A program made the translations under genes and the position numbers. From Deroplatys truncata (Eukaryota > Arthropoda > Insecta > Mantodea > Mantidae), in NCBI GenBank assembly GCA_030765065.1, contig CM060978.1:53720421-53784420 (forward strand): 64,000 bases of DNA. Reading direction: 5' to 3'. Positions 25 through 61,802 of the stretch are shown here, one piece after another (within the stretch, counting starts at the first letter, position 1; the number at the start of each line of letters is the position of its first letter). The notes beneath the pieces were generated by a model that was given only the letters and a program-made list of their open reading frames with translations, was not told where the DNA came from and made no database searches.

Positions 25-920
25 TCTGATGTGTTACACTCACATGACTTTCTCTACTCTTGTACAATCTATTTTTACAAACGCCTATTCTCCATATGCT
101 TCATGTTAATCGAGATATTGAGATGTCAAACTTATTGCTAATTTTCTTGTAGATGCAAGGGAAATATCGTAGCTTTTAAGCGATAGTCAAATATTTTAAC
201 GCTGGTTGCTATGTGGCGCATTCCATTCTCTTTGCATGTCCAGGACATAAAAAAAATGAATAACGAATTTGAGAAAAAGTATAAGTATTGGAAAATTTAA
301 GGAAATAACAAGCAATATCTCGAAAACGGTTCACTCAACAAAAGAAATGTGTATGACATAAGTTGTGTATTTTAACGCGATCTACATTTTTTGTGTAGTA
401 AAATTTTGTCTATCTCTTATGGTTTACCAGTTATGCAAAAGTCGTTCACAATGAAGAATACTTTTGGAGACATTGCCAGAAAATTCGAGATATACATTTC
501 ATTTCTCATGACATTATCTTAAACATATGATATTTTAATCAAAATCGTTAGAGCCATTTTTGAGAAAATTAAAATTTTCGAAAAATCTTCCATGTAAAGG
601 GTAGTCTGGGGTGGGGGGATTTTCTTGAAAACCTTCGTGTCGCATCTCTGGAAGATACTGAACCTAAATACCAAGTTTGGTACTTATCCGACTGTTCGTT
701 TTTGAGTTATGCTGTTCACAGACACACACACACACAGACACACACACACACACACAGACACACACACACACACACAGACACACACACGGACATGTTTCCA
801 AAAATGCTTTTTTTGGATTCAGGAGGTCTCAAAACATGTATTTCCGATGAAATCTCGGTATCGAATTTTTGGGTGGAATGCAATACTTCCCCTACTTACT
901 ATACGTAGTAGAGAAAGTAA
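25..920 (+). mobile_element. Family A element, full copy (Helentron/HINE-like)
   Basis: A complete copy: head beginning TCTGATGTGTTACACTCACA, then ACTTTCTCTACT; A-run at about 247-253 (GGACATAAAAAAA); body starting ATGAATAACG; a CA/CAGACA microsatellite at 719-788; hairpin ACTATACGTAGT; inverted ACTTTCTCTACT (as AGTAGAGAAAGT) at the right end. No transposase is encoded. The short ORFs are the microsatellite read as Thr-His. Confidence 0.8.
719..788. repeat. CA/CAGACA microsatellite inside family A
   Basis: Tandem CA with interspersed GA dinucleotides. The same site is occupied by a CA/GT tract of different length in almost every family A copy, for example 1389-1445, 13007-13036, 23610-23657 and 33196-33226. 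It is therefore part of the element and not an independent locus. Confidence 0.9.
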
Positions 921-1395
921 AAATGAATAACGAATTTGAGAAAAAGTATAAGTATTGGAAAATTTAAGGGAATAACAAGCAATATCCCGAAAACGGTTCA
1001 CTCAACAAAAGAAATGTATATGACATAAGTTGTGTATTTTAACGCGATCTACATTTTTTGTGTAGTAAAATTTTGTCTATCTCTTATGGTTCACCAGTTA
1101 TGCAAAAGTCGTTCACAATGAAGAATACTTTTGGAGACATTCCCAGAAAATTGGAGATATACATTTCATTTCTCATAACATTATCTTAAACATATGATAT
1201 TTTCATCAAAATCGTTAGAGCCATTTTTGAGAAAATTAAAATTTTCGAAAAATCTTCCATGTAAAGGGTAGTCTGGGGTGGGGGGATTTTCTTGAAAACC
1301 TTCGTGTCGCATCTCTGGAAGATACTGAACCTAAATACCAAGTTTGGTGCGTATCCGACTGTTAGTTTTTGAGTTATGCTGTTCACAGACACACA

Positions 1396-1438
<43 letters not shown>

Positions 1439-1580
1439 ACACACGGACATGTTTCCAAAAATGCTTTTTTTGGATTCAGTTAGTCTCAAAACATGTATTT
1501 CCGGTGAAATCTCGGTATCGAATTTTTGGGTGGAATGCAATACTTCCCCTACTTACTATACGTAGTAGAGAAAGTAAAAA
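921..1580 (+). mobile_element. Family A element, body module only
   Basis: It starts exactly at the A-run that separates head from body in full copies (ATGAATAACGAATTTGAG) and runs to the terminal AGTAGAGAAAGT. It is very similar to the body of the copy at 25-920 and has a longer uninterrupted CA tract (1389-1445). The head is absent, so it is either a nested-insertion remnant or a body duplicate. Confidence 0.75.
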
Positions 1581-10530: not shown

Positions 10531-11371
10531 TTACTTTCTCTACTACGTATAGTAAGTAGGGGATGTATTGTATTCCACCCAAAAATTCGATACCAAGATT
10601 TCACCGGTAATATATGATTTGAGACCCCCTGAATCCAAAAAAAGCATTTTTAGAAACATGTCGTGTGTGTCTGTGTCTGTGAACAGCATAACTCAGAAAC
10701 AAACAGTCAGATAAAAACCAAACATGGTGTTTATGTTCAGTATCTTCCAGAGATGCGACACGAAGTTTTTCAAGAAACTTCCTCCGCCCCAGATTACCCT
10801 TTACATGGAACATTTTTCGAAAATTTTAATTTTCTCAAAATGGCTCTAACGATTTTGATTAAAATATCATATGTTTAAGATATTTTTATGACAAATGAAA
10901 TGTATATCTAGAATTTTCTGGGAATGTCTCCAAAAGTATTCTTCATTGTGAACGACTTTTGCATAACTAGTAAACCATAAGAGATAGACAAAGTTTTACT
11001 GCACAAAATATGTAGATCGCGTTAAAATACACAGTTTATGTCATTTACATTTTTTTTGTTGAGTGAACCATTTTCGAGATATTGCTTGTTATTCCCTTAA
11101 ATTTTCCAATAATTTTTCTCAAATAGGAATTCTTAATTCTTTTTTTTTTGTCCTGGACATACAAAGAGAATGGAATACTCCACCTAGCAACCAGCTCTTA
11201 AAATATTTGACTATCGCTTAAAGTCTACCAATTCCCCTTGCACCTACAAGAAAATTAGCAATAAGATTGACATTTCAATATCTCGATTAACATGAAGCAT
11301 ATGGGGAATAAGCGTTTGTAAAAACAGTTTGTACAAGAGTAGAGAAAGTCATGTGAGTGTAACACATCAGA
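10531..11371 (-). mobile_element. Family A element, full copy
   Basis: Runs from TTACTTTCTCTACTACGTAT to GTGTAACACATCAGA. It has a short GTGTGTCTGTGTCTGTG microsatellite, the A-run at the head/body junction (ATTCTTTTTTTTTTGTCCTGG on this strand) and the standard head without the extra H' segment. Confidence 0.8.
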
Positions 11372-12308: not shown

Positions 12309-13005
12309 TCTGATGTGTTACACTCACATGACTTTTTCTACTCTTGTACAATCTATTTTTACAAACGCCTATTCTCCATATGCTTCATGTTAATCGAGAT
12401 ATCGAGATGTCAATCTTATTTGTAATTTTCTTGTAGATGCAAGGGGAATATGGTAGCTTTTAAGCGATAGTCAAATATTTTATCGCTGGTTGCTATGTGG
12501 CGCATTCCATTCTCTTTGCATGTCCAGGACATAAAAAAATGAATAACGAATTTGAGAAAAAGTATAAGTATTGGAAAATTTAAGGAAATAACAAGCAATA
12601 TCTCGAAAACGGTTCACTCAACAAAAAAAAATGTATATGATATAAGTTGTGTATTTTAACACGATCTACATTTTTTGTGTAGTAAACGTTTGTCTATCTC
12701 TTATGGTTTACCAGTTATGCAAAAGTCGTTCATAATGAAGAATACTTTTGGACACATTCCCAGAAATTTCGAGATATACATTTCATTTCTCATGACATTA
12801 GCTTAAACATATGATATTTTCATCAAAATCGTTAGAGCCATTTTTGAGAAAATTAAAATTTTCGAAAAATGTTCCATGTAAAGGGTAGTCTGGGGTGGGG
12901 GGATTTTCTTGAAAATCTTCGTGTTGCATCTCTGAAAGATAGTGAACGTAAATACCAAGTTTGATGTTTATCCGACTGTTAGTTTTTGAGTTATGCTGTT
13001 CACAG

Positions 13006-13040
<35 letters not shown>

Positions 13041-13170
13041 CATGTTTCCAAAAATGCTTTTTTTGGATTCAGGAGGTCTCAAAACATGTATTTCCGGTGA
13101 AATCTCGGTATCGAATGTTTGGGTGGAATGCAATACTTCCCCTACTTACTATACGTAGTAGAGAAAGTAA
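12309..13170 (+). mobile_element. Family A element, full copy
   Basis: TCTGATGTGTTACACTCACA start, A-run near 12533-12539, CA tract 13007-13036, and terminal AGTAGAGAAAGT. It is very close to the copy at 25-920 over head and body, so both are likely recent. Confidence 0.8.
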
Positions 13171-15119: not shown

Positions 15120-16362
15120 CACTACATGATCAAAAGTATCCGGACACCTGGCTGAAAATGACGTACAAGTTCATGGCGCCCTCCATCGGTAATGCTGGAA
15201 GCCAATATGGTGTTGGCCCACCCTTAGCCTTGATGACAGCGTTCACTCTCGTAGGCATACTTTCAATCAGGTGCTAGAAGGTTTCTTGGGGAATGGCAGC
15301 CCATTCTTCACGGAGTGCGGAACTAAGAAGAGGTATTGATGTAGGTCGGTGAGGCCTGGCACGATGTCGGCGGTCCAAAATATCCCAAAGGTGTTCTATA
15401 GGATTCAAGTCAGAGGTGCACAGAGGTGCAGGCTATTCCATTACAGGGATGTTATTGTCGTGTAACCACTCCGCCACAGCCCGTGCAGTATGAACAGGTG
15501 CTCGATTGTGTTGAAAGATGCAATCGCCATCCCCGAATTGCTCTTCAACAGTGGGAAGCAAGAAGGTGCTTAAAATATCAATGTAGGTCTGCGCTGTGAT
15601 CGTGCCACGCAAAATAACAAGGGGTGCAAGTCCCCTCCAGGAAAAACACGACCACACCATAACACCATCACCTCCGAATTTCACTGTTGGCACTACACAC
15701 GCTGGCAGATGACGGACACCGGGCATTCGCCATACACACACCCTGCCATCTGATCGTCCCATTGTGTACCGTGATTCGTCACTTTACACAACGTTCGCCC
15801 ACTGTTCTATCGTGTAATGTTAACGCTCCTTACACCAAGCGAGGCGTTGTTTGGCATTTTCCAGCGTGATGTGTGGCTTATGAGCAGCCACTTGACCATG
15901 GAATCCAAGGTTTCTCACCTCACCCTAACTGTCATAGTACTTGGAGTGGATCCTGATGCAGTTTGGAATTCCTGTGTGACGGTCTGGGTAGATGTCTGCC
16001 TATTACTCTTTACGACCCTCTTGAAATGTCGGCGGTCTCTGTCAGTTAACAGACGAGGTCGGCCTGTACGCTTCTGTGCTGTACATGTCCCTTCACGTTT
16101 CCACTTCACTATCACATCAGAAACAGTGGACCTAGGGATGTTTAGGAGAGTGGAAATCTCGCGTACAGACTTCTGACACAAGTGACACCCAATCACTTGA
16201 CCACGTTGAAGTCCGTGAGTTTCACGGAGCATCCCATTCTGCTGTTTCACGAAGTCTAATGACTACTGAGGTGGCGGATAATGAGTACCAGGCAGTAGGT
16301 GGGAGCATAATGCACCTAAGATGAAAAGCGTATGTTTGTGGGATATTTTTGATCGCATAGTG
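15120..16362 (-). pseudogene. Decayed Tc1-like transposon
   Basis: A 1243-bp element flanked by TA (15118-15119 and 16363-16364), with imperfect terminal repeats of about 25 bp sharing GATCAAAA(G/A)TATCC. The minus-strand frame 15915-16250 is the N-terminal paired-type HTH (REISTLLNIPRSTVSDVIVK, then a GRPR hook). After a frameshift, 15433-15762 carries GVMVWSCFSWRG and the catalytic region. The second catalytic site reads QHNRAPVHT where Tc1 proteins have QQDNAPxH, so the aspartate is lost, and LNPIEHLWDILDRR follows in a further frame. It is certainly inactive. Confidence 0.9.
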
Positions 16363-17257: not shown

Positions 17258-18168
17258 TTACTTTCTCCACTACGTATAGTAAGTAGGGGAAGTATTGTAT
17301 TCCACTCAAATATTCGATACCGAGATTTCACCGGAAATACATGTTTTGAGACACCCTGAATCCAAAAAAAAAAACATTTCTGGAAACATGTCCGTCTGTG
17401 TGTCTGTCTATGTGTGTGTGTCTGTCTGTGAACAGCATAACTCAGAAACGAACAGTCAGATAAACACCAAACTTGGTATTTAGGTTCAGTATCTTCCAGA
17501 GATGCGACACGAAGGTTTTCAAGAAAACCCCCCACCCCAGATTACCCTTTACATGGAACATTTTTCGAAAATTTTAATTTTCTCAAAAATGGCTCTAACG
17601 ATTTTGATTAAAATATCATATGTTTAAGATATTTTCATGACATATAAAATATATATCTTGAATTTTCTGGGAATGACTCCAAAAGTATTCTTCATTGTGA
17701 ACGACTTTTGCATAACTGGTAAACCATAAGAGATAGACAAAAGTTTACTATACAAAAAATGTAGATCGCGTTAACATACACAATTTATGTCATATACATT
17801 TTTTTTGTTGAGTGAACCATTTTCGAGATATTGCTTGTTATTCCCTTAAATTTTTCAATACTTATTTTCTCAAATGGAAATCCGTTATTCATTTTTTTGT
17901 CTTGGATATGCAAAGAGTATTAATCTGTGGCAAAGGGAATGGTGCTGCACCTAGCAACCAGCTATTAAGAGATATGTATGTGCTTAAAGGCTACTGTATT
18001 TCTATATTGCCCTTGTAAATATATATTCCCCTTACATCTACAAGAAAATTAGCAATAAGATAGTCTTCAAATGTTTATCTCGATTAACATAAAGTAGATG
18101 GAGAATAAGCGTTTGTAAAAATAGTTTGTACAAGAGTAGAGAAAGTCATGTGAGTGTAACACATCAGA
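17258..18168 (-). mobile_element. Family A element with H' head variant
   Basis: TTACTTTCTCCACTACG start on this strand, GTGTCTGTCTATGTG microsatellite, and end GTAACACATCAGA. The head is the longer H' variant, with GGATATGCAAAGAGTATTAA, ATGGTGCTGCACCTAGC and GGCTACTGTATTTC in place of the shorter standard segment. Confidence 0.8.
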
Positions 18169-18398
18169 TTTTTTTTTGTCCTGGTAATTCAAAGAGAATA
18201 GAATACTCCACAAGCAACCAGCTCTTAAAATATTTGACTATCGCTTAAAGCCAACCAATTCCCCTTGCATCTACAAGAAAATTAGCAATAAGATTAACAT
18301 CTCGATATCTCGATTAACATGAAGTAGATGGAGAATAAGCGTTTGTAAAAATAGTTTGTACAAGGGTAGAGAAAGTCATGTGAGTGTAACACATCAGA
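18169..18398 (-). repeat. Tandem extra family A head module
   Basis: A 230-bp standard head directly follows the H' head of the previous copy, separated by a T-run. It starts GTCCTGGTAATTCAAAGAGA and ends TAACACATCAGA. No body accompanies it. Confidence 0.8.
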
Positions 18399-22467: not shown

Positions 22468-23924
22468 TTTTAATTTCTCTACCGCATACATTAGGTAGAA
22501 AAGATTGCATTTCACCCGAAAATTTGGTACGAGATTTCAACGGAAATATATGTTTTGGGGTCTCCTGGATAAATAAAATAGAAAAAGACCCGTGTGTGTG
22601 CGTGTGCGTGAACAGCATAACTAAAAAACGAAGAGTCGGATAACTACCAAACTTGATATTTATGTTCAGTATCCTCCAAGGGTGTGACACGAAGATTTTT
22701 TTAAGAACATTCCTCCACCCGAACTATTTTGATTTTATAAAAAATGGCTATAACGATTTTGATTAAAATATTATATGTTTCAGATATTTTCATAGCAAAT
22801 GAAATGTAGATAATGAATTTTCTGGGAATGTCCCCAAAAAGCCTTCTTCATTCTGAATGACATTTGCATAACTGGTAAACCGTAAGAGATAGACAAAACT
22901 GTACTATACAAAAAATCTGATGTGTTACACACACATGACTTTCTCTACTCTTGTACAACCTATTTTTACAAACGCTTATTCTCCATATGCTTCATGTTAA
23001 TCGAGTTATCGAGATGTTAATCTTATTGCTAATTTTCTTGTGGATGCAAGGGGAATATGTTAGTATTTAAGCGATAGTCACATCTTTTAAGAGCTGGTTG
23101 CTATGTGGCACATTCCATTCTCTTTGTATGTCCAGGACATAAAAAATGAATAACGAATTCCCATTTGAGAAAATAAGTTTTGAAAATTTAAGGGAATAAC
23201 AAGCAATATTTCGAAAACGGTTCACTCAACAAAAAAATGCATATGACATAAATTGTGTATTTTAACGCGATCTACATTTTTGTGTAGTAAAATTTTGTCT
23301 ATCTCTTATGGTTTACCAGTTATGCAAAAGTCGTTCACAATGAAGAATACTTTTGGAAAGATTCCCAAAAAATTCGAGATCTACATTTTATTTGTCATGA
23401 AAATATCTTAAACATATGATATTTTAATCAAAATCGTTAGAGCCATTTTTAGGAAATTAAATTTTCGAAAAATGTTCCATGTAAAGGGTAATCTGGGTTG
23501 GGGGGATTTTCTTGAAAACCTTCATGTCGCATCTCTGGAAGATACTGAACCTAAATACCAAATTTGGTGTTTATCCGACTGTTCGTTTCTGAGTTATGCT
23601 GTTCACAGACAGACACACAGACTGACAGACAGACACACAGACAGACAGACACATACACGGACATGTTTCCAAAAATGCTTTTTTTGGATTCAGGGATCTC
23701 AAAACATGTATTTCCGGTGAAATCTCGGTATCGAATTTTTGAGTGGAATACAATACTTCCCCTACTTACTGTACGTAGTAGAGAAAGTAAAAATGTAAAT
23801 CTCTCACTAAAACATGCAATTTATGTCATATACATTTTTTGTGGAATGAACCATTTCCTTGTTATTTGCTTGTACGTTCCAATACTTATACTTTTTCTCA
23901 AATGGAAATTCGTTATTCGTTTTT
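22468..23924 (-). mobile_element. Family A body, interrupted by a nested family A copy
   Basis: The left part, 22468-22915, ends ACTATACAAAAAA. The right part, 23789-23924, resumes TGTAAATCTCTCACTAAAAC and ends at the head/body junction (GGAAATTCGTTATTC). In uninterrupted copies the same place reads ACACAAAAAATGTAGATC, so the nested copy entered the six-A run. Confidence 0.8.
22916..23788 (+). mobile_element. Family A element, full copy nested in another copy
   Basis: Forward copy from TCTGATGTGTTACACACACA to GTAGAGAAAGT, with a CAGACAGACACA microsatellite (23610-23657). The insertion into a known sequence places the termini at TCTGATG on one side and AGAAAGT plus possible A residues on the other. 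Confidence 0.85.
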
Positions 23925-24885
23925 TTACTTTCTCTACTACGTATAGTAAGTAGGGGAAGTATTGTATTTCACCCAAAATTTCGATACCGAGATTTCATCG
24001 GAAATACATATTTTGATACCTCCTGAATCTAAAAAAAGCATGTTTAGGAACTTGTCCGTGTGTGTGTCTGTCTGTCTGTGTGTCTGTGTGTTTGTCTGTG
24101 AACAGCATAATTCAGAAACGAACAGTCGGATAAACACCAAACACTCTATTTAGGTTCAGTATCTTCCAGAGATGCGACACGAAGGTTTTCAAGAAAATCC
24201 CCCCACCCCAGACTACCCTTTACATGGAACATTTTTCGAAAATTTTAATTTTCTCAAAAATGGCTCTAACGATTTTGTGTAAAATATCATATGTTTAAGA
24301 TATTTTCATGACAAATGAAATGTATATATCTCGAATTCTCTGGGAATGTCTCCAAAAGTATTCTTCATTGTGAACGACTGTTGCATAACTGGTAAACCAT
24401 AAGAGATAGACAAAATTTTACTGCACAAAAAATGTAGATCGCGTTAAAATACACAATTTATGTCCTATACTTTTTTGTAGAGTGAACCATTTTCGAGATA
24501 TGGCCTGTTGTTCTCTTAAATATTTCAATACTTTCTCAAATGGGAATTCGTTATTCATTTTTTGCCTTGGATATGCAAAGAGTATTAATTTGTGGCAAAG
24601 AGAATGGTGCTGCACCTAGCAACCAGCTATTACGAGTAATGTCTATGCTTAAAGGCTACATTATTTTTATATTGCCGTTGCAAATACAAAACAAGTGGAA
24701 CATAGTAGCGATAGTCAAATATTTTTAGAACTGGTCGCTAAGTGTAAAATGTAATTCTCTTTGCATGTCGAAAGACCTTTTCTGGAAATGTTTATCTCGA
24801 TTAATATGAAATAGATGGAGAATAAGAGTTTGTAAAAATAGTTTGTACAAGAGTAGAGAAAGTCATGTGAGTGTAACACATCAGA
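23925..24885 (-). mobile_element. Family A element with H' head
   Basis: Body begins ACTTTCTCTACTACGTATAG immediately after the T-run that closes the preceding body. GTCTGTCTGTCTGTGTG microsatellite. H' head (CTTGGATATGCAAAGAGTAT, GTGGCAAAGAGAATGGTGC) ends GTAACACATCAGA at 24885. Confidence 0.8.
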
Positions 24886-25552
24886 ATTTTTTTATGTCCT
24901 GGACATCAAAGAGAATGGAATACTCCACATAGCAACCAGCTCTTAAAAGATTTGACTATCGCTTAAAACCTACCATATTCCCCTTGCACCTACAAGAAAA
25001 TTAGCAATAAGATTAACATCTCGATTAACATGAAGCATATGGAGAATAAGCGTTTGTAAAAATAGTTTGTACAAGAATAGAGAAAGTCATGTGAGTGTAA
25101 CACATCAGAATTTTTTTATGTCCTGGACATCAAAGAGAATGGAATACTCCACATAACAACCAGCTCTTAAAAGATTTGACTATCGCCTAAAGCCTACCAA
25201 TTCCCCTTGCATCTAAGAAAATTAGCAATAAGATTAACATCTCGATTAACATGAAGCATATGGAGAATAAGCGTTTGTAAAAATAGTTTGTACAAGATTA
25301 GAGAAAGTCATGTGAGTGCAACACATCAGAATTTTTTTATGTCCTGGACATCAAAGAGAATGGAATACTCCACATAGCAACCAGCGCTTAAAATATTTGA
25401 CTATCACTTAAAGCCTACCATATTCCCCTTGCATCTAAGAAAATTAGCAATAAGATTAACATCTCGATTAACATGAAGCATATGGAGAATAAGCGTTTGT
25501 AAAAATAGTTTGTACAAGAGTAGAGAAAGTCATGTGAGTGTAACACGTCAGA
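24886..25552 (-). repeat. Tandem array of three family A head modules
   Basis: Three direct units of 224, 221 and 222 bp (24886-25109, 25110-25330, 25331-25552). Each starts ATTTTTTTATGTCCTGGACA, contains AAAATTAGCAATAAGATTAA and TTTGTACAAG, and ends CACATCAGA or CACGTCAGA. Units are nearly identical and no body lies between them. Confidence 0.9.
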
Positions 25553-27294: not shown

Positions 27295-28099
27295 TCTGAT
27301 GTTCCACACTCACATGACTTTTTCTACTTTTGCACAAACTATTTTCACAAACGCTTATTCTCCATATGCTTCATGTTAATCGAGATGTTAACCTTATTGC
27401 TAATTTTCTTGTAGGTGCAAGGGGAATATGGTAGTATTTAAGCGAGAGTCAAATGTTTTAAGAGCTGGTTGCTATGTGGCGCATTTCATTCTCTTTGTAT
27501 GTCCAGGACATAATTCCGATTTGGGAAAAAGTATTGGAAAATTTAAGGGAATAACAAGCAATATCTCGAAAATGGTTCACTCAACAAAACAAATGTATAT
27601 GACATAAATTGTGTATTTTAACGCGATCTACATTTTTTGTGTAGTCAAATTTTGTCTATCTCTTATGGTTTACCAGTTATGCAAGTCGTTCACAATGAAG
27701 AATAATTTTGGAGGCATACATAAAATTCGAGATATACATTTCATTTGTCATGAAAATATCTTAAACATATGATATTTTAATCAAAATTGTAGGCCATTTT
27801 TAGTAAATTAAAATTTTCGAAAAATGTTCCATGTAAAGGGTAGTCTGGTGTGGGGGATTTTCTTGAAAACCTTTGTGTCGCATCTCTGGAAGATACTGAA
27901 CCTAAATACCAAGTTTGGTGTTTATCCGACTGTTCATTTCTGAGTTATGCTGTTCACAGACACACACACGGACATGTTTCCAAAAATACTTTTTTGGATT
28001 CAGGGGGTCTCAAAACATGTATTTCCGGTGAAATCTCGGTATCGAATTTTTGGGTGGAATACAATACTTCCCCTACTTACTATACGTAGTAGAGAAAGT
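27295..28099 (+). mobile_element. Family A element, full copy
   Basis: TCTGATGTTCCACACTCACA start, head, body with a short CACACACACGG tract, and terminal AGTAGAGAAAGT. The A-run at the head/body junction is lost (CAGGACATAATTCC). Confidence 0.8.
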
Positions 28100-32449: not shown

Positions 32450-33361
32450 TCTGATGTGTTACACTCACATGACTTTCTCTACTCTTGTACAAACTATTTT
32501 TACAAACGCTTATTCTCCATATACTTCATGTTAATCGAGATAAACATTTGCAGAGTCTATCTTATTGCTAATTTTCTTGTAGATGTAAGGGGATAATATA
32601 TTTACAAGGCCAATTTGGAAATACAGTAGCCTTTAAGGACATACATATCTCTTAATAGCTGGTTGCTAGGTGCAGCACCATTCCCTTTCCCACAGATTAA
32701 TACTCTTTGCATATCCAAGACAAAAAAATGAATAACGAATTCCCATTTGAGAAAATAGTATTGAAAATTTTAAGCGAATAACAAGCAATATCTCGAAAAT
32801 GGTTCACTCAACAAAAAAAATGTATATGACATAAATTGTGTATTTTAACGCGATCTACATTTTTTGTGTAGTAAAATTTTGGCTATCTCTTATGGTTTAC
32901 CAGTTATGCAAAAGTCGTTCACAATGGAGAAACTTTTGGAGGCATTTCCAGGAAATTCAAGATATACATTTTATTTGTCATAAAAGTATCTTAAACATAT
33001 GAAATTTTAATCAAAATCGTTGGAGCCATTTTTGAGAAAATTAAAATTTTCGAAAAATCTTCAATGTAAAGGGTAATCTGGGGTGGGGGGATTTTCTTGA
33101 AAACCTTTGTGTCGCATCCTTGGAAGATACTGAACCTAAATACCAAGTTTGGTGTTTATCCGACTGTTCGTTTCTGAGTTATGCTGTTCACAGACAGACA
33201 CACACACACACACACAGACACACACACGGACATGTTTCCAAAAATGCTTTTTTTTTTGGATTCAGGGGGTCTCAAAGCATGTATTTCCGGTGAAATCTCG
33301 GTACCGAATTTTTGGGTGGAATACAATACTTCCCCTACTTACTGTACGTAGTAGAGAAAGT
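32450..33361 (+). mobile_element. Family A element with H' head, full copy
   Basis: TCTGATGTGTTACACTCACA to GTAGAGAAAGT. The head is the H' variant (AATATATTTACAAGGCC, AGCTGGTTGCTAGGTGCAGC, AATACTCTTTGCATATCC). CA tract 33196-33226. Confidence 0.8.
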
Positions 33362-34642: not shown

Positions 34643-35439
34643 CCTGATGTGTTACACTCACATGACTTTCTCTACTCTTGTACAAACTATTTACACAAAT
34701 GCTTATTCTCCATATGCTTCATGTTGATAGAGATAAACATTTGCAGAAACTATATTATTGCTAATTTTCTTGTGGTTGCAAGGGGAATATGGTAGATTTT
34801 AAGAGATAGTGAAATATTTTAAGAGTTGGTTGCTATGTGGCGCATATTACTCTCTTTGCATATCCAGTACATAAAAAAAACCAATAATGAATTCCCATTT
34901 GAGAAAAAGTATAAGTATTGGAAAATTCAGACAAATAAGGAATATCTCGGAAATGGTTCACTGGATAAAAAAAACTATATGACTTAAATTGTGTATTTTA
35001 ATAAGGTTTACATTTTTTTGTGCAGTAAAATTTTGTTTATCTCTTACGGTTTACCAGTTACGCAAAATTCATTCAGAATGAAGACAACTTTTGGGGTCAT
35101 TGCCAGAAAATTCAAGATATACATTTCATTTGACATGAACGTATCTTAAACATATATTTTAATGAAAATCGTTAGAGCCTTTTTTGAAAAAATCAATTTT
35201 TTCGAAAAATGTTCCATGTAAAGGGTAGTCTGGGTTGGGGAATTTTCTTGAAAATCTTCGTGTCGCATCTTTGAAAGATACCGAACCTAAATACCAAGTT
35301 TGGTACTTATCCGAATTTTCGTTTTTGAGTTATGCTGTTTACAGACACACAGGCACCATATATTTCAGGTGAAATTTCAGTATCGAATTTTTGGGTGTAA
35401 TGCAATACTTGCCTACTTACTATACGTAGTAGAGAAAGT
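34643..35439 (+). mobile_element. Family A element, full copy with collapsed microsatellite
   Basis: CCTGATGTGTTACACTCACA start and AGTAGAGAAAGT end. The microsatellite and adjoining segment are reduced to ACAGACACACAGGCACC. Confidence 0.75.
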
Positions 35440-48423: not shown

Positions 48424-48825
48424 TTATTTATGCCTTAATATTTTAGTAGCATAGTTCAAAATCTGATTTGAGAACTCTGTAGTAAGCCTGTAGCGTAGAG
48501 CTAGGTAAGCAACAATGCGGTAGATAAGTCCAAACACAAGTAAACCCAGTAACTGACCCCAAGTGGTTAAACCGTCCATGCCAAGATCTCGGAGTAGAAG
48601 TTCTGGATCCTGGTAGTGGCAATAGTTGAGTTCTGCATCAATACAGTTCATCATGGGACGATTGTCACCATATATTGACACCGTGATTCCTGTCAGGCCA
48701 TAGCGAAGGAAGCTAAGGCTCATAAGGATGTACATAGTCTTCTCAATGGCAGGTCCATGACCCATTCCATACACTGCGAGGGCAAGCAGGGGCGAGAATG
48801 TTGCGGGTGCTACTATGGATCCATT
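48424..48825 (-). CDS. ABCG half-transporter, terminal exon with stop codon
   Basis: This last coding exon is 402 bp including the stop and follows a T-rich tract and CAG. It encodes NGSIVAPATFSPLLALAVYG, then helix 5 ending in SFLRYGLTG, the extracellular loop with ISIYG-like TVSIYGDNRP and paired cysteines (NCIDAELNYCHYQDPELLLR), then a final helix GLLVFGLIYRIVAYLALRYR, a short tail TTEFSNQILNYATKILRHK and TAA. Helix 5 L-R-Y-G, the cysteine pair in the last loop and the terminal R-x-x-A-Y-x-x-L-R-Y pattern are diagnostic of the ABCG1/ABCG4 group. An AATAAA overlaps the stop region (AAATAAATAAAA). The upstream intron (48826-54726) is 5.9 kb and holds five or more repeat insertions. Confidence 0.95.
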   Translation of the reverse strand, partial: NGSIVAPATFSPLLALAVYGMGHGPAIEKTMYILMSLSFLRYGLTGITVSIYGDNRPMMNCIDAELNYCHYQDPELLLRDLGMDGLTTWGQLLGLLVFGLIYRIVAYLALRYRLTTEFSNQILNYATKILRHK

Positions 48826-49002
48826 CTGAAAGGGTTTAAAAAAATCATCAGCTATGTTTCAACATTTTAAAATTGAAATTAATATTAAGTTTTCCTTATA
48901 CTGCTCTTAATATCCAAACATTCTTAATTTACTTTAATCCATTTTCTACAAACAATCAATAAAAAAAATCAACATACTACATTCACATTACTTTCTCTAC
49001 CC

Positions 49003-49839: not shown

Positions 49840-50683
49840 TTACTTTCTCTACTACGTATAGTAAGTAGGGGAAGTATTGTATTCCACCCAAAAATTTGAT
49901 ACCGATTTCACCGGAAATACATGTTTTGAGACCCCCTGAATCCGAAGAAAGCATTTTTGGAAACATGTCCATGTGTGTGTCTGTGTGTCTGTGAACAGCA
50001 TAACTCAGAAACGAACTGTCGGATAAACACCAAACTTGGTATTTAGGTTCAGTATCTTCCAGAGATGCGACACGAAGGTTTTCAAGAAAATCCCCCCACC
50101 CCAGATTACCCTTTACATGGAAGATTTTTCGAAAATTTTAATTTTCTCAAAAATGGCTCTAACGATTTTGATTAAAATATCATATGTTTAAGATATTTTC
50201 ATGACAAATAAAATGAATATCTCGAATTTTCTGGGAATGTCTCCAAAAGTGTTCTTCATTGTGAACGACTTTTGCATAACTGGTAAACCATAAGAGATAG
50301 AAAATAATACACAATTTATGTCATATACATGTTTTTTGTAGAGTGAAGCATTTTCGAGATATTGCTTGTTATTCCCTTAAATTTTTAATAGTTTTCTCAA
50401 ATGGGAATTTGTTATTCATTTTTTTGTCTTGGATATACAAAGAGTATTAATCTGTGGCAAAGGGAATGGTGCTGCACCTAGCAACCAGCTATTAAGAGAT
50501 ACGTATGTGCTTAAAGGCTACTGTATTTCTATATTGCCCTTGTAAATATATATTCCCCTTACATCTACAAGAAAATTAGCAATAAGATAGAGTCTCGATT
50601 AACATGTAGCATATGGAGAATAAGCGTTTGTAAAAATAGTTTGTGCAAGAGTAGAGAATGTCATGTGAGTGTAACACATTAGA
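49840..50683 (-). mobile_element. Family A element with H' head
   Basis: TTACTTTCTCTACTACGTAT start; GTGTGTGTCTGTGTGTCTGT microsatellite; H' head (GGATATACAAAGAGTATTAA, ATTGCCCTTGTAAATATATA); end GTAACACATTAGA. Confidence 0.8.
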
Positions 50684-50880
50684 TTTGTTTATGTCCTGGA
50701 CATGCAAAGAGCGCTTAAAATACTTGACTATCACTTAAAACCTACCATGTTCCCCTTGCATCTACAAGAAAATTAGCAATAAGGTTAACATCTTGATTAA
50801 CATGAAGCATACGGAGAATAGGCGTTTGTAAAAATAGTTTGTACAAGAGTAGAGAAAGTATGTGAGTGTAACACATCAGA
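50684..50880 (-). repeat. Tandem extra family A head module, shortened
   Basis: About 197 bp: TTTATGTCCTGGACATGCAA, GACTATCACTTAAAACC, ACATGAAGCATACGGAG, TAACACATCAGA. As at 18169 and 24886, it is a standard head placed directly behind an H' head. Confidence 0.75.
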
Positions 50881-53810: not shown

Positions 53811-54698
53811 TTACTTTCTCTATGTATAGTAAGTAGGGGAAGTATTTCATACCGAGATTTTACCGGAAATATATGTTTTGAGACACCCTGAATCCAAAAA
53901 AAGCATTTTTGGAAACATGTCCATGTAGGTGTCTTTGTGTATGTCTGTGTGTCTGTGAACAGCATAACTCAGAAACGAACAGTCGAATAAACACCAAACT
54001 TGGTATTTAGGTTCAGTATCTTCCAGAGATGTGACAAAAAGGTTTTCAAGAAAATCCCCCCACCCCAGATTACCCTTTACATGGAACATTTTTCGAAAAT
54101 TTTAATTTTCTCAAAAATGGTTCTTAACGATTTTGATTAAGATATTGTATGTTTACGATATTTTCATGACAAATAAAATGTATATCTTGAATTTTCTGGG
54201 AATGTCTCCAAAAGTATTCTTCATTGTGAACGACTTTTGCATAACTGGTAAACCATAAGAGATAGACAAATTTTTACTAGACAATAAATGTAGATCGCGT
54301 TAAAATACACAATTTATCTCATATACTTTTTTTGTTGAGTGAACCATTTTCGAGATATTGCTTGTTATTCCCTTAAAGTTTTCAATACTAATTTTCTCAA
54401 ATGGGAATTCGTTATTCATTTTTTTTGTCTTGGATATGCAAAGAGTATTAATCTGTGGGAAAGGGAATGGTGCTGCACCTAGCAACCAGCTATTAAGAGA
54501 TATGTATGTGCTTAAAGGCTACTGTATTTCTATATTGCCCTTGTAAATATATTTTTCCCTTACATCTACAAGAAAATTAGCAATAATATAGAGTCTGCAA
54601 ATGTTTATCCGGAATAACATGAAGTAGATGGAGAATAAGCGTTTGTAAAAATAGTTTGTACAAGAGTAGAAAAAGTCATGTGAGTGTAACACATCAGA
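53811..54698 (-). mobile_element. Family A element with H' head, next to a splice donor
   Basis: TTACTTTCTCTATGTATAGT start; microsatellite GTGTATGTCTGTGTGTCTGT; H' head (GGATATGCAAAGAGTATTAA, GGAATGGTGCTGCACC); end GTAACACATCAGA. It ends 28 bp from the coding end of the ABCG exon at 54727. Confidence 0.8.
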
Positions 54699-55293: not shown

Positions 55294-55977
55294 CTACTTC
55301 CTATTAAAAAATTCTCTTCTACAATTTTCTGTTCCTTGGCACTTAAGTACTATGTGTTCAATGTCTTCATTACCACCACATATCGGACAATGGTTCTGAG
55401 GAATACCCTGTCTTAACCCTCTTAGCCTCCATGCTCCTGTTCTTACCCATGCAATAGATTCTCTCTCTTCTTTATTTACTATGTCTATATATTTTTCCCT
55501 ACCCCATGTATTTTTCATTGGCCTATAACAAACTAATGAGCTCTTTTCGTCAATCTCATTGAACATGATTTGTATTTCTATATCTTCCAGTCTTTTCCTT
55601 GCCTTTTTCCAAAAAATTTTCACATTATTTTCTCTCCTTCTCCACATCTCTCCTAACCCATTTTTCTCCAAAATGTTCCGTAAATTACTTACCCATCCAT
55701 CATTCATTAAACTATTCTCTTGGTATTTAATACATTGTCTTAACACATTACTTTTTCCTAGATTTAAAGTTCTGAACCAAAATGTCAAAGCTCTTTCCAT
55801 TATCTTCCCCTTAGTTGTCACCCTGCCCATCTTTAATTGTGCTATCTGTCTTACAATTGACTTCGGTAGTCCTAGTATTTCTCTACAAAACATCCTGTGC
55901 ACCACATCTATACTTTCCCATCCTCTATCTAATCCCCATATTTCTATACCATACATCATTATTGCCTCCACAACCAT
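55294..55977 (-). pseudogene. LINE ORF2 C-terminal region (227 codons, 5'-truncated)
   Basis: An open frame starting inside the RT palm/thumb region: MVVEAIMMYGIEIWGLDRGW (the YG.E.WG block after the RT domain), IDVVHRMFCREILGLP, then a basic middle and the C-terminal zinc-finger block HCPICGGNEDIEHIVLKCQG. This order is typical of non-LTR retrotransposon ORF2. The frame is intact over 684 bp, so the fragment is not old. It lies in an ABCG intron, sense to the gene. ORF1, endonuclease and RT catalytic motifs are absent. Confidence 0.8.
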
Positions 55978-56105
55978 CTCATAAACTTTTTCCAGCCATT
56001 TAACATCCTATTATAGCTAATTGAGTTCTTATCTATTATAGTGAATTTACACTTAAGAAAACAATACAGGTCTCATGGGCTTTTAGGTTTTGTGTACTCA
56101 CACCC

Positions 56106-60600: not shown

Positions 60601-60909
60601 AAAAGTATTTGATTTGTTATGCCAGGTTAGTTTAGTTTTTAAGTATCACACATTTTCATAATATATAATTAAGCACATAGCATTATGGAATACAAGTGTT
60701 TGAAGTGTTCTACAGAATCTTGGAAGAAAAATCTAACAGTTAAATTTAGAAGACTCTCTCTACCCAATAACATCTGTTTTTATATCTCTTCAACAAAATG
60801 TTATTACAAAAACTTACTTCCTCTTCTAATATCTACTTATAGTAATTAAAGGAAATATTGCTTTCCACCCAAAAATTTTGTATCAAGATTCCACCAGAAA
60901 TACAAGTTT
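60601..60909. other. Intronic stretch with a family A terminal fragment
   Basis: 60845-60909 retains GGAAATATTGCTTTCCACCC and CAAGATTCCACCAGAAATAC in reverse orientation. The rest is unassigned. Confidence 0.5.
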
Positions 60910-61802
60910 ATGACTTTCTCTACTCTTGTAGAAACTATTTTTACATTTGCAGAAACGACCTTTTGACATGCAAAGAGAATTACATTTTATACATAGCGAC
61001 CAGTTCTAAAAATAATTGACTATCGCTTAAGGCATACCATGTTCCGCTTGTTTTGTATTTGTATTGTATATAAAAATACAGTAGCCTTTAAGCAGAGACA
61101 TATCTCTTAATAGCTGGTTAGGTGCAGCACCATTCTCTTTGTCACAGGTTAACACTCTTTGCATATCCAAGACAAAAAAATGAATAACGAATTCCCATTT
61201 GAGAAAATAAGTATTAAAAAATTTAAGGGAATAACAAGTAATATCTCGAAAATGGTTCACTTAACAAAAAAAAGTGTGTATGACATAAATTGTGTATTTT
61301 AACGCCATCTACATTTTTTGTGTAGTAAAATTTTGTCTATCTCTTATTGTTTACCAGTTATGCAAAAGTTGTTCACAATGAAGAATACTTTTGGAGACAT
61401 TCCCAGAAAATTCAAGATATACATTTTATTTGTTCTGAAAATATCTTAAACATATGATAATTTAATCAAAATCGTTAGAGCCATTTTTGGGAAAATTAAA
61501 ATTTTCGAAAAATGTTCCATGTAAAGGGTAATCTGGGGTGGTGGGATTTTCTTGAAAACCTTCGTGTCGCATCTCTGGCAGGTACTGAACCTAAATACCA
61601 AGTTTGGTGTTTATTCGTTTCTGAGTTATGCTGTTCACAGACACACACACCCACACAGACAGACACATACACGGACATGTTTCCAAAAATGCTTTTTTTG
61701 GATTCAGGGGGTCTCAAGCATGTATTTCCGGTGAAATCTCGGTATCGAATTTTTGGGTGGAATACAATACTTCCCCTACTTACTATACGTAGTAGAGAAA
61801 GT
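60910..61802 (+). mobile_element. Family A element with H' head
   Basis: It begins ATGACTTTCTCTACTCTTG; the first 22 bases are missing. H' head (CCTTTAAGCAGAGACATATC, GTGCAGCACCATTCTCTTTG), body, microsatellite CACACACACCCACACAG, and end AGTAGAGAAAGT. Confidence 0.8.

Follow-up and report, generated by a model that had tools for sequence, protein, structure and literature searches.

The repeat at positions 25–918 of the window, the 64,000-base stretch analyzed here (G000:C4:53720421-53784420, from a genome of 4.29 Gb in 818 contigs), is very probably a non-autonomous Helentron (HINE) that is moved by the rolling-circle machinery of a Helentron in the same genome. It is placed in the Helentron class because a longer relative carrying both of its ends is predicted to encode a Rep domain, a PIF1 helicase, and an endonuclease of AP type, and Helentrons are defined by having these three together. 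The original prediction had named this class and had called for a search for a larger Rep/helicase relative with the same ends. Such a relative exists, and all seven Helentrons read at both ends share them with the repeat. The family is a new one within the known HINE/Helentron class, as judged against literature text rather than repeat libraries; a literature search with three sequences from its ends gave no match.

The element is 894 bp long and lies on the minus strand, with its 5′ end at 918 and its 3′ end at 25, as delimited by exact ends and profile matches at 26–759 and 753–918. It consists of two modules whose junction was read from the sequence. Module B (257–918, minus strand) forms the 5′ part and module A (25–248, minus strand) the 3′ part. 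They are separated by an internal run of eight T's on the minus strand (249–256), the type of site that holds nested Helentrons.

Module B opens with the 5′ subterminal inverted repeat (subTIR) ACTTTCTCTACT, read directly at 907–918 on the minus strand. Together with adjoining bases it makes up a longer imperfect inverted repeat, ACTTTCTCTACTACGTATAGTAAGTAGGGGAAGT; DINE-1 is likewise described with a longer inverted repeat around its 5′ subTIR. The DNA fold of this repeat has an energy of -5.7 kcal/mol (z -3.93), and none of 200 shuffles was equally stable. A CA/GT microsatellite of variable length follows near the 5′ end (717–787, minus strand; Tandem Repeats Finder). Its anchor is located 122–127 bases from the 5′ end in nine of the 11 near-complete copies, the exceptions being copy 23927 (112 bases) and copy 35439 (unmatched), and the measured stretch is 13–69 bases in near-complete copies.

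Module A starts with the palindrome ATGTCCTGGACAT right after the T-run and ends with the 3′ hairpin and CAGA. The palindrome folds no better than its shuffles (z -0.54). The 3′ subTIR AGTAGAGAAAGT, also read directly, occupies 47–58 on the minus strand, 22 bases from the 3′ end. The hairpin ATGTG-agtgtaa-CACAT (29–45, minus strand) lies between it and the end, from which it is separated by four bases. Its fold is weak and not above shuffles (z -0.78); the sequence is nonetheless conserved in both HINE and Helentron. The element thus has subterminal inverted repeats and a 3′ palindrome between the 3′ subTIR and the end, the arrangement by which HINEs are recognized.

Several of these parts had been pointed out beforehand in forward-strand letters: a start motif TCTGATGTG (25–33) with hairpin arms ATGTG (29–33) and CACAT (41–45), ACTTTCTCTACT about 22 bases in (47–58), an inverted copy AGTAGAGAAAGT at the other end (907–918) adjoined by the hairpin ACTA-TACG-TAGT, and a CA/GT microsatellite of variable length at a fixed site. 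All are present as described. The supposed start, TCTGATGTG, is however the 3′ end, as the element runs from 918 to 25 according to the reading direction of the partner protein. The exchange of the two ends leaves the class assignment unaffected.

The partner borders define this orientation. In all six Helentrons first read at both ends, a T-run is followed by ACTTTCTCTACTACG at the 5′ border, and ACACATCAGA is followed by a T-run at the 3′ border; a seventh agrees. The longer readings, ACTTTCTCTACTACGTATAGTAAGTAGGGG after the 5′ T-run and GTAGAGAAAGTTATGTGAATGTAACACATCAGA before the 3′ T-run, also hold in six of six. These borders are the reverse complements of the far end and the start of the repeat as originally read, and HINE 25–918 therefore reads on the minus strand. 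A canonical Helitron (Helitron1), with 5′ TC, 3′ CTRR, and insertion between A and T, was considered and rejected: the borders here are ACTTTC after a T-run and CAGA before a T-run.

The two ends are not equally close to the partner. The first 672–694 bp of the Helentrons are 91–97% identical to window copy 1 (six of six), but the last 100–112 bp are only 71–72% identical, and two differences fall within the last 33 bases. Because of this imbalance, the HINE is best viewed as an internal-deletion relative of the Helentron, with a 3′ part that either diverged or was derived from a sister subfamily. Given the 3′ divergence, a closer Helentron subfamily could also be the true partner. Mobilization by a Helentron subfamily other than the one described is nevertheless unlikely, as the seven end-read Helentrons are members of the group that has many copies and open frames, and match the HINE closely over the 5′ end.

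The partner group was found with the Rep domain PF14214, which gave at least 152 matches in the genome (150 of 291 candidates scored); 18 open frames of 2,108–2,543 codons are among the matches listed. Among ten loci of the Helentron group, L030 is 96.2–98.4% identical to the nine others. For the copy on contig C9, both ends and the surroundings of the frame were read; the ends of five more copies were fetched by offset, and those of a seventh were added. Pfam domains, scored on frame pieces from two copies, comprise Herpes_teg_N (4.3e-10), DUF6570 (4.8e-17), Helitron_like_N (1.7e-28), and PIF1 (1.6e-27). Behind the helicase, Exo_endo_phos_2 reaches an E value of 1.3e-5, with 25.5 bits against a Pfam cut-off of 27.4 bits. 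The L040 frame contains GDFN and SDHKP, which are presumably AP-type endonuclease motifs.

Matches to the helicase part include PIF1 helicases of known structure and Helraiser (7lcc). The Rep motifs RGSPHEH and YIIKYISK are present in ten of ten group members (L029–L038). The serine of Rep motif 2 (RGSPH, in place of leucine) is diagnostic for Helentrons according to the available part of Thomas et al. 2014 (PMC4067079). The N-terminal part of the frame (L039:329-1798) resembles a tegument-like protease; in an alignment with a tegument protein of known structure, weak at an E value of 0.0066, QCTSN and DPHS correspond to QCLSN and DPHC. Such a protease is a known Helentron passenger (PMC9741609, consulted in excerpt). 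No OTU domain was detected at E 0.001 in the frame pieces scanned. As judged from these domains and motifs, the partner is a Helentron predicted to encode a herpes-tegument-like protease, a Rep domain, a PIF1 helicase, and an AP-type endonuclease. Pieces of its protein have no tblastn match in the window at E 1e-3, in agreement with the earlier statement that the repeats carry no transposase frame.

A second Rep group (L009–L028) shows motif 2 as RGLPHAH in 11 of 20 members and no motif 2 in nine, and stops interrupt the match in 17 of 20. It was set aside as partner group and assigned to canonical Helitrons on the basis of the RGLPHAH motif. By its sequence features, the group is probably an older Helitron lineage alongside the Helentron. 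One of its Rep loci, L018, has the 12-base motif nearby.

Besides the copy at 25–918, five complete HINE copies are defined by exact ends and profile: 10533–11371 (plus strand) and 12309–13168, 27295–28099, 32450–33361, and 34643–35439 (minus strand). Another complete copy (22916–23788, minus strand) sits inside an older HINE, and its empty site is seen in other copies. Three complete copies on the plus strand are extended by A modules. The first (17260–18398) contains the copy 17260–18168 and one extra A module at 18171–18398, giving the form B-A-A. The second (23927–25552) has a B end before the copy 23927–24885 and three A modules of about 221 bp after it (24889–25552). The third (49842–50880) consists of the copy 49842–50683 followed by one A module at 50686–50880. 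An extra B module (919–1575, minus strand; profile positions 1–633, 5′ end at 1575) directly precedes copy 1 on its 5′ side, giving the form B-B-A. Two copies identified by profile are near-complete: 53813–54698 (plus strand, profile positions 1–857) and 60897–61802 (minus strand), the latter with a different 3′ end. The 11 near-complete copies share 79.1–95.9% pairwise identity, with a mean of 88.8%.

A few other frames are found in the window. An element at 2188–2832 has long inverted ends, ACGGGGGCTATCCAGAAAGTAATCTCCGTT, and a short coding remnant that is taken to be mariner-like. Of the transposase pieces at 15433–16262 (minus strand), presumably Tc1-like, the one at 15915–16262 matches the HTH domain of Sleeping Beauty at 2e-9 but stays under the cut-off of that domain, and the other gave no Pfam match. 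Two more frames on the minus strand lack a Pfam match at 0.001. The one at 55294–56007 resembles the C-terminal part of a non-LTR reverse transcriptase, and the one at 48424–48858 bears a resemblance to the end of an ABCG transporter.

A profile built from the 11 near-complete copies detects 56 HINE segments covering 23,443 of 64,000 bases (36.6%), close to the third of the window estimated at the outset; the reversed window gave a single match of 63 bases. The family is also abundant genome-wide. The 3′-end pattern TCTGATGTG-N13-ACTTTCTCTACT, 34 bases with 13 left free, has 162,311 matches (81,514 + 80,797), and the exact 5′-end 30-mer ACTTTCTCTACTACGTATAGTAAGTAGGGG has 131,038 (65,403 + 65,635); both reversed controls gave none. 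Neither end pattern has an exact match in viral contigs, nor does the 5′ pattern in prokaryote contigs. In 40 samples of 3 kb at preset positions on seven contigs, the family covers 17,433 of 120,000 bases, or 14.5% (bootstrap 8.7–20.9%), so that the window is denser than the sample average. A HINE match occurs in 18 of the 40 samples, and the reversed control covers 185 bases.

The cover may differ among contigs. On C16 (707 Mb) it is 4.8% in ten samples (L069–L074, L091–L094), compared with 17.8% in the 30 samples from elsewhere (one-sided permutation p 0.029, in a small sample). C16 is possibly a chromosome with a different history, for example a sex chromosome. This contig starts with repeats of CCTAA, the usual arthropod telomere repeat. 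A separate observation concerns contig C1, where L001–L008 (G000:C1, about 20.5–119 kb) belong to an array that repeats in tandem roughly every 3,408 bp. The same HINE insertion is present in the eight units fetched, and L001 is 98.2–98.4% identical to the seven others. The array looks like a satellite that was amplified following the HINE insertion.

The junction between a 3′ end and the start of module A occurs exactly 10,006 times in the genome. Within the window, 22 of 55 pairs of neighboring segments are within 20 bases of each other (gap or overlap), compared with 1.5 expected and a maximum of seven in 5,000 random placements. Copies interrupted by other copies account for part of this close spacing, and such interruption is itself a form of nesting. 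The Helentrons also possess a doubled 5′ end: all seven read carry two B modules, 626–662 bp apart.

The 3′ flanks of 19 Helentrons were compared, seven read earlier and 12 further ones out of 20 chosen, picked by Rep score and frame length and thus not a random set. In ten of the 19, the flank is a T-run followed by module A from HINE profile position 628–630. Locus L106 gave two end matches, and since neither leads to the start of A, the count of ten is unaffected. Among runs of six or more T's on both strands of the 40 samples, only ten of 252 are such sites (binomial 6e-10, Fisher 2.5e-8), and among runs of seven or more, nine of 111 (Fisher 1.7e-5). The control sites were identified by motif and the Helentron flanks by profile; by profile, the controls amount to ten of 699 runs of five or more T's. 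Ordinary HINE 3′ ends are followed by the start of A in six of 34 cases, tandem A arrays counted. Seven Helentrons were read on both sides, including three of the ten flanked by A; a B end is on the left in all three, and the other four lack this arrangement.

The flanking A modules bear on how many insertions these junctions represent. Pairwise, the ten differ by 1.1–29.5%, with a mean of 10.3%, and the corresponding mean among 18 ordinary A modules is 21.1%. Full independence of the ten insertions is weakened because the flanking modules are more alike than ordinary ones. The target HINEs may form a subfamily of recent origin, or some of the copies may go back to a single source. The junctions might even all descend from one composite, or a small number of them, that moved together with the adjoining HINE module, since rolling-circle elements can bypass a 3′ end (available text of PMC4067079). 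The closest links, below 3%, join L100, L104, L105, and L108 with one another and C1:33206011 with L103. That origin is nonetheless improbable for the junctions as a set. Among nine of the flanks, only five of 36 pairs differ by less than 3% and 31 differ by 3% or more, and the tenth flank (C4) differs by 27–30% from all others, whereas the 3′ regions of six compared Helentrons differ by just 0.1–0.3%. When alike flanks (<3%) are counted once, six of 15 Helentrons remain at such sites (Fisher 6e-5 against runs of six or more T's and 3e-3 against runs of seven or more).

Preferential landing of the partner in the internal T-run of the HINE, giving B-[element]-A composites, together with copying between alternative ends, giving B-B-A, B-A-A, and the doubled 5′ end of the Helentron, is the somewhat favored account of these forms. 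A broader proposal is put forward more tentatively: the Helentron could have a strong insertion hotspot in the internal T-run of its own HINE, with the composites recasting both families, and this self-feeding cycle could have helped the lineage to take up about 15% of a genome of 4.3 Gb. A Helentron hotspot in its own HINE was not found in the literature searched, whose coverage leaves out most subscription papers.

The target sites were analyzed for 17 insertions aligned at their borders, comprising ten window HINEs, six Helentrons, and one HINE in L001. The flanking T-runs contain two to seven T's on the 5′ side and zero to nine on the 3′ side; both zeros start with an A and then T's. With the T's stripped, none of the 17 has a matching flanking 3-mer or longer, and one has a matching 2-mer (0.6 expected). 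Unstripped flanks match at the level of shuffled pairs. Insertion is into T-rich sequence without target duplication beyond the T's, so the fixed-length duplication that had been named as grounds against the Helentron class did not appear. The other such ground, a partner with a DDE transposase or a reverse transcriptase, was likewise not encountered among the elements examined.

Junction-spanning matches to empty sites were obtained for nine of the 17 queries; many other candidate matches covered one side only or stemmed from neighboring copies. Three were accepted (23788, HelC4, and HelC5), and six were not (13168, 17260, 23927, 49842, HelC9, and HelC13). The empty and filled sites read T5 and T5+T6 for copy 23788, T8 and T6+T7 for the Helentron on C4, and T7 and T5+T8 for that on C5. 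The empty-site match for HelC4 is a Helentron leader (L051, 86%), not a HINE. Filled sites hold five to six more T's than empty ones, a surplus for which T's carried by the element and a duplication of about five T's look identical. Thomas et al. report the same doubt over where the T's belong, in the part of PMC4067079 consulted.

These sites, together with the ends and the partner, speak against two readings outside the rolling-circle class. The first is a MITE of the cut-and-paste type, bounded by terminal inverted repeats and dependent on a DDE transposase. A 12-base inverted repeat close to each end and the absence of coding sequence are reminiscent of a MITE, and DINE-1 was formerly classed in this way (PMC2374699, seen in part); the reading is very improbable, as the inverted repeats are subterminal, the two ends are unlike each other, a fixed duplication is absent from 17 insertions, and the element that shares the ends encodes the predicted Rep, helicase, and endonuclease. 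Even less credible is a SINE-type retroposon with the A-run as poly(A) tail: on the plus strand copy 1 finishes in an A-run and lies in A-runs, but a T/A-run is present on both sides, no variable-length duplication is seen, the empty sites show extra T's only, and both ends match the Helentron.

For a HINE moved by the Helentron, the following sequence of events can be envisaged. The Helentron protein would recognize the shared 5′ subterminal repeat and the 3′ hairpin, and a Rep-mediated nick would be made at the T-run border. One strand would then be copied as far as the 3′ hairpin and inserted in another T-run. A nested arrangement B1-[B2-A2]-A1 would provide a choice of two 5′ ends and two 3′ ends. 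If copying started at the outer 5′ end (B1) and stopped at the first 3′ end (A2), the product would be B-B-A; if it started at the inner 5′ end (B2) and stopped at the outer 3′ end (A1), the product would be B-A-A. Both predicted products are seen in the window. The doubled 5′ end of the Helentron could have arisen when copying of a HINE-nested ancestor started at the outer 5′ end and stopped at the ancestor's own 3′ end. Self-insertion was suggested earlier for Fusarium Helitrons, among which a single nested case and several elements with a doubled 5′ end were described (PMC5148889, accessible in part).

A very abundant HINE and closely similar partners with open frames are present together in one genome. 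Target choice, end recognition, and composite formation by Helentrons become testable by reading insertion sites, empty sites, and alternative-end products. The cover suggests that one rolling-circle family can occupy about a seventh of a large genome. Helentron copies nested in the HINE T-run may be a possible route by which the two build on each other.

The family shares many features with HINE/DINE-1 elements, as described in the accessible sections of Thomas et al. 2014 (PMC4067079): 12-base subTIRs, a microsatellite, a 3′ palindrome near the end, T-rich targets, variable end T's without a clear duplication, and a Rep/helicase/endonuclease partner. DINE-1 also has a 5′ inverted repeat nested in the subTIR. 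In the mite HINEs of that source, the 3′ subTIR is 38–60 bases from the end, farther than the 22 bases here. The present family differs further in its two modules parted by a T-run, in the B-B-A and B-A-A forms, and in making up about 15% of the genome as sampled.

Cg_HINE of the Pacific oyster, according to the excerpt of PMC7492417, has a similar left flank of subTIR, inverted repeat, and GT-rich microsatellite, and a similar right flank of subTIR followed by a palindrome. It contains central satellite-like repeats, whereas the terminal modules are repeated here. The Helentron-encoded tegument-like deubiquitinases (VTD; PMC9741609, in part) also place Herpes_teg_N at the N terminus of the frame; those proteins are deubiquitinases, and the one here is a putative protease.

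A parallel to the composites is provided by the FoHelis of Fusarium oxysporum, as covered in the portion of PMC5148889 available. Composite FoHelis likewise combine several 5′ ends with a single 3′ end, a structure attributed to self-insertion and to copying that begins at the outer 5′ end and stops at the first 3′ end. The two systems display several differences. One nested FoHeli is described, compared with ten of 19 partners at one kind of internal site here. The repeated part is less than 200 bp in FoHelis, but 626–662 bp in the doubled 5′ end found in seven of seven Helentrons read. In addition, FoHelis are without the endonuclease, whereas the Helentron has a candidate AP-type domain, scored below the Pfam cut-off.
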